Below, piece after piece: positions 1 to 8,462 of a DNA stretch of 64,000 nucleotides. The DNA comes from Achromobacter insuavis (lineage in GTDB: Bacteria > Pseudomonadota > Gammaproteobacteria > Burkholderiales > Burkholderiaceae_B): positions 124,001-188,000 of the forward strand of contig NZ_CADIJR010000002.1 of the NCBI RefSeq assembly GCF_902859645.1. Reading direction: 5' to 3'. The position numbers and the translations under genes are program-made. A model generated the notes under the pieces. It searched no databases and was not told where the DNA came from. It was given only the letters and a program-made list of their open reading frames with translations. Every line of letters starts with the position of its first letter. The first letter of the stretch is position 1.

Positions 1-467
1 GCAACCTGTCGTCCCAATTCTTCGCCAACATCTTGCTGGACGGCCTGGATAAGCACGTGAAGCACCACCTGCACGGCAAGCACTACGTGCGATACGTGGA
101 CGACTTCGTCTTGCTGCACCCATCAGCGCAATGGCTAGGGCAGGCCCTGGACTCGGTCAACTCCTACCTGCCACGGCTGGGCTTGGAACTGAACCCGCGC
201 AAAACCATCATCCAGCCTATCGATCGAGGCGTTGATTTTGCCGGTCATGTAATCAAGCCCTGGCGCCGTGAAGTGCGCCGCCGCTCCGTCCGCACGGCTG
301 TGCGACGAATCGAAGATCTGCCACAAGAGAGGGTCTTCGAGACGGGCAATAGCTACCTAGGGATGCTTCGCCATGCAGACGGCCACCGTGACCGCGCCCT
401 GATTGCCAATGCCATGCGCAAGCGCGGGTATGCCGTTCGATCCGATCTGAAAAAGGCCTATCGCTAA
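1..467 (+). CDS. Reverse transcriptase, DGR type, C-terminal 154 residues (5' end outside window)
   Basis: The reading frame is open from base 3 to the stop at 465-467, so the gene enters from the left edge and only its C-terminal part is visible. It opens with GNLSSQ-type residues (NLSSQFFAN visible), then YVDD at 93-104, the catalytic metal-binding motif of reverse transcriptases, then a thumb-like stretch (LELNPRKT, GVDFAGHVIKP). The GxxxSQ form in place of QGxxxSP is established as typical of DGR reverse transcriptases, such as that of Bordetella phage BPP-1. A DGR enzyme copies a template repeat with adenine-specific errors into a variable gene. In the usual order (variable gene, avd, template repeat, RT) those parts would lie upstream, outside the window. 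It could instead be another phage-borne RT class; the RT call is very firm, the DGR call moderately so. Confidence 0.85.
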   Translation, partial: NLSSQFFANILLDGLDKHVKHHLHGKHYVRYVDDFVLLHPSAQWLGQALDSVNSYLPRLGLELNPRKTIIQPIDRGVDFAGHVIKPWRREVRRRSVRTAVRRIEDLPQERVFETGNSYLGMLRHADGHRDRALIANAMRKRGYAVRSDLKKAYR

Positions 468-4233: not shown

Positions 4234-5318
4234 GCATGGGGCGCAAGCCTACCCGCAATCGCTTGCCGCCTGGCATGCGCGCGCGCCACCGCGGCGCCAA
4301 GACCTACTACTACTTCGACCTGGGTGGCAAGCCGCGCAAGGAAGAGCCGCTGGGGTCCGACTTCGTCGAGGCCATGCGCCGCTGGGGCCAGCTCACGCAG
4401 CAGTCGGTCGGCGCCGCCGGCCAGGTCACATTCCGTCAGGCTGCTAACCGATACTTCGCCGACATCGTGCCGACGAAGGCGCCGCGCACGCAGGACGGCA
4501 ACCAGATCGAACTCGAATTCCTGTGCGAGATCTTCGACAAACCCCCGGTCGCGCTGGAGTTGATCAAGCCTGTCCACGTCACCCGGTACATCCGCTGGCG
4601 CATGGGGAAAGCGGCGGACTGGTTCCGCGAGAAGGGCCGGGAGGTGCCACCCGATGCCGGCCACGTCCGCGCCAACCGCGAAATCGCGCTGTTCAGCGCC
4701 ATTTTTAACTACGCCCGCGAGATCGGCCTGACCGACGCACCGAACCCCGCCCAGGGCGTGCGCAAGAACAAGGAGCGCGGCCGCGACACTTACGTCGAGG
4801 ACGACACCTATGCGCAGGTCTGGAAGGCTGCGGACGAGCCGCTGCAGGACGCCATGGACCTGGCCTACCTGGCGGGCCAGCGGCCGGCCGACACCCTGCG
4901 GTTTCTGGAGACGGACATGCGCGACGGCTTCCTGCATGTACGCCAGGGCAAGACCGCCCAGAAGCTGCGCATCGAGATCACCGGCGAGCTGGCGCAGGTG
5001 GTCGACCGGATCAAGGCCAGGAAGGCCCGCTACCGTGCCGACAACAAGGTGGTCAGCCTGTACCTGGTGGTGAACGAATCCGGCCTGCCGCTGACCGCCG
5101 GCGCGCTGCGCGATCGGTTCGACAAAGCCCGCCAGGCGGCCGGCGTGCCCAAGGCCGCGTTCCAGTTCCGCGACCTGCGCGCCAAGGCCGGCACCGACAA
5201 GACCGAGGCCGCCGGCGACATCCGCCAGGCCCAGAAGCAGCTCGGCCATGGGTCGGTGACGACCACCGAGAAGTACGTCCGGCGCCGCAAGGGCGACAAG
5301 GCAGCACCCACTCGGTAA
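4230..5318 (+). CDS. int: Phage integrase, tyrosine recombinase, 362 aa
   Basis: This protein integrates and excises the element by site-specific recombination. The N-terminal half (residues 1-160) holds a DNA-binding and SAM-like core-binding domain. The catalytic domain shows the first Arg in AGQRPADTL, the Lys in VRQGKTAQKL, the second Arg box as FQFRDLRAKAGT, and the LGHGSVTTTEKYV segment with the conserved His and the nucleophilic Tyr. The box II histidine position (HxxR) holds Arg, as in a known subgroup of phage integrases. It reads toward the tRNA 77 bp away, the classic layout for integration into a tRNA 3' end. The alternative start ATG 4236 is two codons downstream. Confidence 0.95.
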   Translation: MSMGRKPTRNRLPPGMRARHRGAKTYYYFDLGGKPRKEEPLGSDFVEAMRRWGQLTQQSVGAAGQVTFRQAANRYFADIVPTKAPRTQDGNQIELEFLCEIFDKPPVALELIKPVHVTRYIRWRMGKAADWFREKGREVPPDAGHVRANREIALFSAIFNYAREIGLTDAPNPAQGVRKNKERGRDTYVEDDTYAQVWKAADEPLQDAMDLAYLAGQRPADTLRFLETDMRDGFLHVRQGKTAQKLRIEITGELAQVVDRIKARKARYRADNKVVSLYLVVNESGLPLTAGALRDRFDKARQAAGVPKAAFQFRDLRAKAGTDKTEAAGDIRQAQKQLGHGSVTTTEKYVRRRKGDKAAPTR

Positions 5319-5384: not shown

Positions 5385-5394
5385 CGAGTTTCTT

Positions 5395-5473
<79 letters not shown>

Positions 5474-5480
5474 AGGAAAC

Positions 5481-7748
<2,268 letters not shown>

Positions 7749-8462
7749 AGTCGCTTCCGTGGTCGTCGCAACCCGTTCGGGCATGTTGCACCGCATGACG
7801 CCGCTGCCAGGCAAAGGCCTTTCGCGGCATCCCTACGGGTAAATCAGGTGAATCGGCGGAAGCCCCGCGGCTGCGTTGTTCGCAGCACCGGCTCTTGCGA
7901 GCCCGCCTGGCGTCGTTGCGGTCCGTGACCGGCTGGGCGCCTGGCGTGCATGGCTTCATCCCGCGATGGACTTCGGGCGTCGAGGGGGGGCTGTCTGCCT
8001 ATAAATAGGCGTTGCTTGCCTGTCGGGCCTTGCCCTTGGCAGCTGGATAGACACAGCACCCAAACCTCAGACGCGGCGCGAAGATAACCGTCGCCGGACT
8101 GCGTGATTCACCGCTCAGCTATAGTAATTAACTATGTAACAAGTTTGACGCACACGTCCGCTTTTTTTTCGTGCTGGCGCCTGGGGCTTACCCGCCCCGG
8201 ACCGACCCGCTCAACCGGTATCGGTCCTGTCCGCCAGCCCGGCGCATCTTCAGCCGACCTGCCCATCAAACCCTAAAACAATTAGATTCCGGCGGCGAAA
8301 ATAGATTCCGCCCGCCGTTCTTTTTCCTGCAGCTTCTGTAATCGGCTTCTGTAATCGTTTTCCCGCGGCACTGAGAGTCCTGCCCCCTCTCTCGTCACCA
8401 CCTCGTCGCCATACGGCGTTCGTGGCAATGTCGCGGCGGGAAAACCCTTGATTTTACCGCAT
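7749..8462. other. Long dnaG-rpoD spacer, no gene recognised
   Basis: The 714-bp gap between dnaG and rpoD holds no convincing coding frame; frames across 8282-8728 and 7711-7959 are shadows of neighbours. An AT-rich island at 8118-8150 contains the inverted repeat ATAGT-AATTA-ACTAT (8121-8135). On the minus strand it offers TTGTTA and TATAGC elements, though with only 13 bp between them, so a separate rpoD promoter here is plausible but not proven. CCTATAAATAGG near 7999 is a second small palindrome. The length suggests independent control of rpoD. Confidence 0.5.

Follow-up and report, generated by a model that had tools for sequence, protein, structure and literature searches.

The window analysed here, 64,000 nucleotides of Achromobacter insuavis DNA (C2:124001-188000, where C2 is the source contig; a window position is the C2 position minus 124000, and a position in locus L002 the C2 position minus 105000), opens inside a reverse transcriptase (RT) gene that is near certain, on the strength of its sequence features, to belong to a diversity-generating retroelement (DGR). 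Window positions 3-467 form an open frame of 154 codons, which begins NLSSQFFANILLDGLDKHV and includes RYVDDF. This is the C-terminal part of an RT of 361-366 residues that begins ~0.62 kb further upstream on this contig, and the complete gene is intact, with no internal stops over 366 codons. The protein matches PF00078 (61 bits, cut-off 29.6) and phrog_1423 (376 bits). In domain 4, the (I/V/L)GxxxSQ motif given as the definition for DGR RTs in PMC3521204 reads IGNLSSQ, within GLPIGNLSSQ (the glycine of GNLSSQ depends on bases just outside the window), and the YxDD motif reads YVDD.

The 20 kb upstream of the RT were searched for the other parts of a DGR. This contig region holds one template repeat (TR) of 105 nt and three variable repeats (VRs), all on the + strand (Table 1). 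The TR sits 15 nt upstream of the start of RT homology, ~0.64 kb outside the window, and each VR lies at the 3′ end of a small gene. Over the inner 98 nt, all 41 mismatches fall at TR adenines (13/13 in VR1, 12/12 in VR2 and 16/16 in VR3); the 3 or 4 non-A differences per VR at the edges of the 105-base alignment, outside this core, are taken as the ends of the repeat. The conserved 3′ end of the repeat reads ..FRVRPVR.. / GTGCGTCCCGTCCGC. Searched genome-wide with up to three mismatches, the 3′-end pattern was found four times, all inside this element, and the remaining genomic matches to the 105-nt repeat were short and weak. The accessory gene avd is present and scores over the cut-off for PF22296 (46.3 bits, cut-off 40) and 95.8 bits for phrog_3206, with 52 bits for NF033474, under its cut-off of 80.

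The element lies in a prophage of ~45.4 kb bounded by a 49-bp direct repeat that is part of tRNA-Met. Portal, major head, tail sheath, tape measure and baseplate genes occupy C2:87-105 kb on the − strand, and the + strand of the prophage carries the repressor and exonuclease genes, an SSB gene named from its sequence, the DGR and the integrase. The host element is a temperate phage with a contractile tail. We put at about 0.88 the probability of the overall reading, a complete DGR in this phage that is predicted to mutagenize three C-type-lectin genes.

Table 1. Features of the retroelement and of the prophage that carries it
Feature	Position	Strand	Basis or remark
DGR RT, C-terminal part	window 1..467	+	PF00078, phrog_1423, GLPIGNLSSQ and YVDD, tree
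Whole RT gene	C2:123382-124467	+	366 aa counted from ATG at 123367
YVDD catalytic motif	window 93..104	+	read from translated frame
TR	C2:123262-123366	+	105 nt; abuts RT
RT-15 RNA (RF03018)	C2:123076-123265 (L002:18076-18265)	+	Rfam covariance match
Avd gene	C2:122736-123122	+	between target B and TR; PF22296, phrog_3206
Target A gene	C2:121682-122251	+	189 aa, carries VR2
Target B gene	C2:122294-122707	+	137 aa, carries VR3
Target C gene, distal	C2:116352-116804	+	150-161 aa, carries VR1
VR1	C2:116690-116794	+	3′ end of target C gene
VR2	C2:122137-122241	+	3′ end of target A gene
VR3	C2:122584-122688	+	3′ end of target B gene
Hairpin after target A gene	C2:122269-122281	+	stem-loop search
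Hairpin after target B gene	C2:122714-122728	+	stem-loop search
Hairpin after target C gene	C2:116821-116838	+	stem-loop search
Left attachment repeat	C2:83983-84031	.	49-bp direct repeat
Right attachment repeat	window 5393..5441 (C2:129393-129441)	.	inside tRNA-Met gene 5395-5473, minus strand
Prophage tyrosine integrase	window 4236..5318	+	phrog_1, 150 bits

A sequence-only reading of the window had recognized a DGR-type RT at its left edge and a phage context, both of which are confirmed. It had also placed a variable gene and its template upstream, outside the window; the position was right, and three variable genes are present where one was expected. Its further suggestions, an avd-like gene, a repeat pair of 100-150 bp differing mainly at the adenines of one copy (here ~105 bp, with almost all differences at such adenines) and a variable copy ending a C-type lectin gene, are all borne out, and it was right to note the lack of a template-like repeat downstream of the RT, the TR being upstream.

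It is scarcely conceivable that the RT is that of a retron, a group II intron or a defence system and the repeats are unrelated to it. The protein does show a generic likeness to such enzymes: it scores 90 bits against the group II intron RT/maturase model TIGR04416 and 41.5 bits against the retron model NF038233, and in PADLOC, which was run without cut-offs, it matches 85 families, led by 'RT' (134 bits), with RT_UG4 at 86 bits. All NCBIfam scores are, however, far under their cut-offs (300 for TIGR04416 and 235 for NF038233, with no further NCBIfam retron model at E 1 or better), as is each of the five Drt models matched among those for defence RTs (DRT/Abi), and the GxxxSQ motif, Avd and adenine-specific TR/VR pairs indicate a DGR. 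These identities were rejected on the curated scores and the TR/VR pairs. In an RT phylogeny, a check that the sequence-only reading had suggested, the RT groups with proteobacterial DGR RTs that have TR/VR pairs, apart from the three group II intron rows (4 of 8 intended outgroup rows entered this tree); the single retron row is too long-branched to place and stands at an unresolved fork. The lineage is also separate from the BPP-1/VHML/BalMu group (support 96/89); the monophyly of its own clade is weakly supported (63/42), and several branches are very long.

RNA structures at the template and the targets

A full-length match to RT-15 RNA (157 bits against a gathering score of 82) ends at the first bases of the TR. 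RT-15 was detected in all 24 tested members of the clade, this one included, as well as in 2 of the 11 less related loci tested; in all 26 it ends between −10 and +5 nt from the TR start. At the gathering score it was not found in the other 9 of the 11 less related loci and is therefore confined to part of the DGR tree; nor was it found in six other phage DGR loci, five of which offered only 200 nt of flank. Five further RT-15 matches over the cut-off each adjoin an RT 60-70% identical to the Achromobacter enzyme; two of these loci have TR/VR pairs, and the other three are in reverse orientation, outside the coverage of the pair scan. Three matches under the cut-off, with no adjoining RT, were dropped.

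Comparative folding supports structure on this side of the template. In the 200 nt up to the TR of 48 relatives, the consensus contains 46 pairs, of which 31 show compensatory changes. The paired fraction of its cells is 95%, compared with 82% for shuffles and 29-42% for slid controls, and its covariation score is 0.40 against 0.16. The alignment was not fitted to a structure, and the structure was predicted from that same alignment, so that the slid controls are biased in its favour. On the other side, the same program predicted no pairs in the 151 nt from ~10 nt before the TR end of the 48 relatives, in a gappy alignment, and a second fold, with 118 loci and other scoring, placed pairs within the RT gene, over its first ~100 nt (54-97% paired, few pair types). 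Because of that gappy alignment and those pairs, the 3′ flank is better called unsupported than unstructured. RF03022, the BPP-1-type 3′ spacer RNA, had no match up to E 1 in L002:11000-20000. A pairing of the RT-15 region with sequence 3′ of the TR (4 predicted pairs) was poorly supported and set aside, and a sub-threshold hammerhead match (20.8 of 34 bits) was judged to be chance. In the 118-locus fold, RT-15 was also predicted to pair with the central part of the TR.

The RNA lies upstream of both TR and RT in most members, an arrangement that would also suit a regulatory leader of the RT mRNA with no part in template RNA function. This alternative is unlikely, given the five clade loci in which 315-1077 nt separate the TR from RT homology, with an intervening open reading frame (ORF) in at least L046 and L178, and in which RT-15 remains with the TR. 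By analogy, RT-15 may instead take the role of recruiting Avd and RT that is played in BPP-1 by the 3′ spacer, which recruits bRT-Avd and holds the priming adenine (PMC12875486). In the BPP-1-type locus L202, the structured RNA lies 3′ of the TR (TR 2695-2826, RF03022 'Phage_DGR' RNA 2840-2972, then RT), unlike the 5′ RNA described here. RF03022 is the Rfam family named for DGRs; RF03018 is titled 'RT-15 RNA' and carries no DGR link in the search output. The literature searched yielded no paper linking RT-15 to DGRs, which is not proof of absence, as few queries named RT-15. The RT motifs were reportedly first described by Weinberg et al. in 2017.

Several minor observations concern the template region. 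Other sequence lies between TR and RT in L046, L063, L149, L178 and L180, and the ORFs of L046 and L178 look methyltransferase-like by eye, no family search having been made. In eight loci (L017-L023 and L002), no stop interrupts the RT frame across much or all of the TR, and in the record of phage Magia the annotated RT start precedes the TR; the open frame is probably a by-product of A-rich codons in another frame. In BalMu-1, an RT-14 match (RF02921, 70 bits; L204:25-168) ends just before the RT gene, and other RT-associated Rfam RNAs may likewise belong to DGRs.

Hairpins follow the three target genes, two of G-N-A form and the third with a CTTG loop. Across the lineage, a perfect stem of at least 6 bp follows 87 of 252 target stops (11.6 expected from shuffles), compared with 14/124 RT stops and 6/124 TRs. 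A G-N-A triloop hairpin with a stem of at least 5 bp occurs after 56/252 targets, 0/129 RT stops and in 26/5912 background windows. Most of these are not ordinary terminators, since T-rich sequence follows just 3 of the 56. In published DGR hairpins, a GRNA tetraloop caps a stem of 7-10 bp (PMC3240598); compared with this BPP-1-type hairpin, the loop in the present lineage has 3 nt rather than 4. As most surveyed targets lack a hairpin by these criteria, a need for it is unproved.

The lineage and signs of activity

A tblastn search of phages with the RT gave 117 records. Among the 40 listed, eight have an RT identity of 60-63%, LPPA56 has 57% and the other 31 have 26-35%; the nine records at 57-63% come from seven Shewanella, Pseudomonas and Burkholderia phages (zrk29-1, equal in length and identity to QDWS, is counted with it). 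The BPP-1-type Bordetella phage RT is ~31% identical. Thus the sequence-only suggestion of a separate DGR lineage holds: by sequence comparison, the lineage is large and distinct from the BPP-1 DGR. Relatives number at least 566 among genome contigs and at least 581 among viral contigs, of which the best 80 of each were kept. Within the same genus, 3 of 43 genomes carry the element (E 1e-60 or better).

The TR/VR search covered 170 loci, 136 of them with an RT at least 57% identical to that of Achromobacter, and its VR count kept same-strand pairs only; a recount for opposite-strand pairs in the 136 loci found none. Two or more VRs per RT are the rule in this group. In the 124 loci with at least 1.9 kb upstream, two VRs were found in 92, three in 24, four in 2, one in 5 and none in 1. 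Removal of same-prophage duplicates leaves 119 members, with two VRs in 88, three in 24, four in 2, one in 4 and none in 1, that is, at least two in 114/119. All 279 VRs kept in the 136-locus count lie upstream of the TR. Of the 34 less related loci, 22 were usable, and two VRs were found in 7 of these, one in 11 and none in 4; among such less related DGRs, L092, L103 and L104 have candidate VRs that lie on other strands or flank the RT on both sides.

The clearest sign of mutagenesis comes from two phages of Pseudomonas aeruginosa, Haboob from Denmark and phPA-G from Portugal, whose cassettes are nearly identical. They differ at 25 of 68 VR positions that correspond to template adenines, at 0/142 other VR positions and at 0/105 TR positions; elsewhere in the cassette, 61/2653 positions differ (Fisher P 2e-14 and 7e-22). 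All the parts of a DGR are thus present in the sequences, with the adenine-only pattern and with inter-phage VR changes limited to template adenines, and we infer that the Achromobacter copy is active at present. On the other side of the balance, this is the only one of ten near-identical pairs with many VR changes: L144/L140 has one (1/50) and eight have none, although several of these eight represent the same contig or population and one has no VR in range.

Those unchanged relatives, and the fact that one genome cannot show activity, would suit a decayed element that diversified the three lectins in the past and no longer works. We consider this improbable, as the sequences of RT, Avd, RNA and repeats are intact throughout, and internal non-A changes are absent from all three VRs. 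In a working element, RT-15 RNA and then the TR would form one transcript, on which Avd and RT would act. The RT would make errors opposite adenine while copying the TR, and the resulting cDNA would take the place of the VRs in the three target genes; the conserved 3′ end of the repeat and, at least partly, the hairpins just past the genes would guide it. About a dozen residues of the C-type-lectin binding face would be rewritten as the outcome.

The RT of BPP-1 carries the GxxxSQ motif. With the BPP-1 DGR (mtd, avd, TR, brt), the element shares Avd, adenine-specific mutagenesis from a TR and the order target-TR-RT with the VR gene upstream, as in L202. It differs from BPP-1 in the divergence of its RT, in having three small targets in place of one tail protein, and in the non-late position of these targets. 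Two or three small targets upstream of an RT-abutting TR also occur in Magia, QDWS, Haboob, phPA-G, Cruim01, LPPA56 and SC_8_H2H8_2017; RT-15 is present in all four of those tested (QDWS, Haboob, Magia and SC_8) and annotated in the Cruim01 record. The Achromobacter prophage differs from these seven phages in host and neighbouring genes. The Magia paper describes a DGR with short target genes and names genes 47 and 57 as targets (PMC7883833). We find a third VR in Magia gene 46 (L019:12163-12627), which the accessible text of that paper does not name.

Multi-VR DGRs of Burkholderia, Ralstonia, Pseudomonas and Collimonas are listed in the DiGReF survey (PMC3521204, Table 2), and DUF1566 targets in PMC6642488. 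In their several VRs per RT, DUF1566/Lcl_C targets and related hosts, these resemble the present elements and probably belong in part to the same lineage; the available text of the two papers gives no description of the phage arm or the RNA, and the DiGReF authors report that their test for prophage association was unsuccessful (PMC3521204). In the part of Roux et al. consulted, viral targets are mostly tail proteins in three of six DGR clades, and the mixed viral/cellular clade 3 may hold the present lineage (PMC8144416). Multi-VR DGRs and DUF1566 targets are therefore known already, and the possible novelty is the 5′ RNA arrangement, if it is undescribed in the literature.

Place and possible role of the targets

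The three targets are Lcl_C/DUF1566-like, with PF07603 scores of 40.0 (A), 34.5 (B) and 32.1 bits (C), of which A alone passes the cut-off of 34.9. Lcl_C is present in 69/74 targets of relatives, the 74 being drawn from high-scoring matches to the family model. Target ORFs of relatives were chosen under guidance of a hidden Markov model, and in that set they are short and mostly without export signals. This sets them apart from the C-terminal domain of Legionella Lcl (8Q4E): Lcl is a collagen-like adhesin, going by the NF046116 name, and the present targets stand alone as proteins, most of them with no export signal.

In those phages whose genomes were read, the target genes map to the repressor-to-integrase arm, across from the late genes and away from the tail genes, and orphan homologues retain the early position. 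No VR was found in tail genes across the Achromobacter genome or in the read parts of the seven phages, nor, specifically, in the tail-fibre-like ORF adjoining the baseplate genes of the prophage (L003:1282-2229; named from sequence and place). That tail-gene search gave one extra VR, the third of QDWS, in its early arm. The next closest stretch in Magia, inside the tail-fibre region but on the other strand and with 4 of 22 mismatches at non-A positions, was judged to be chance.

Since the targets lie beside early/lysogeny genes whatever the tail type of the phage, and most have no export signal, we prefer, at about even odds, a role inside the cell. In this proposal they are binding proteins made from an early/lysogeny operon, not virion parts, and would counter host defences or rival phages within the infected cell or lysogen. 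Several observations weigh against it. A membrane-like stretch occurs in 16/249 targets; integrase-like matches lie on the opposite strand in 17/86 and repressor-like ones in 12/79, so that the arm is not uniform. The late-gene evidence covers just two loci beyond the seven phages, the late-gene seeds having seldom reached past their source phages (11/13 matches came from those phages). Moreover, the lectin domain has some phage relatives that are joined to tail-fibre or collagen parts, so that the targets may yet belong to the virion.

Mtd of BPP-1 is a separate small gene product. It is a tail-fibre protein varied by the BPP-1 DGR (PMC6642488), and the small lectins could similarly be receptor-binding tips that are supplied in trans from outside the late operon and join the virion tail, the DGR then switching host tropism as in BPP-1. 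Fold relatives of the lectin domain in tail fibres favour this alternative, and the Magia authors suggested host range (PMC7883833). It is nevertheless the more doubtful of the two, in view of the position of the targets in annotated phages, the early position kept by the orphan homologues, and the occurrence of the cassette in phages of both kinds, those with contractile tails (the Achromobacter prophage, Magia) and those whose annotation shows no sheath (Haboob, phPA-G).

Action inside the cell, joined to the 5′ RNA, leads to a tentative proposal, which we rate somewhat short of even odds: the lineage may represent a second phage DGR architecture, in which an RT-binding RT-15 domain lies 5′ of the template and two to four soluble lectin-fold binders from the repressor/early operon form a hypervariable repertoire inside the cell rather than a host-range switch. 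With the RT-15 domain 5′ of the template, cDNA priming would then have to differ from the 3′-spacer self-priming of BPP-1. Most knowledge of how DGRs work comes from BPP-1, in which a 3′ structured spacer recruits the RT and primes cDNA, and a large lineage with a conserved RNA on the other side of the TR makes alternative priming directly testable. If true, hypervariable early-arm proteins that are neither secreted nor parts of the tail would widen the uses that phages make of targeted mutation, perhaps to evasion of defences or competition with other phages.

Some further observations concern target relatives and neighbouring genes. At the DGR position, Medea1 (L193:7992-9300) carries a tandem pair of DUF1566 genes with methyltransferase genes after it, and neither an RT nor Avd is annotated in that stretch; the pair is perhaps a remnant of a lost DGR. 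Between the repressor and the first target of the Achromobacter prophage, a minus-strand ORF (L002:9388-10419) has a weak PHROG match to a superinfection-exclusion, Sie-like protein (E 4e-5). Directly left of the prophage lies a second prophage-like stretch (C2:65001-84000, L004), with an integrase-like C-terminus, named by eye, beside the left attachment repeat. Just past the right attachment site, on the minus strand at window 5481-7814, is an rpoD-like sigma factor gene (named from sequence).
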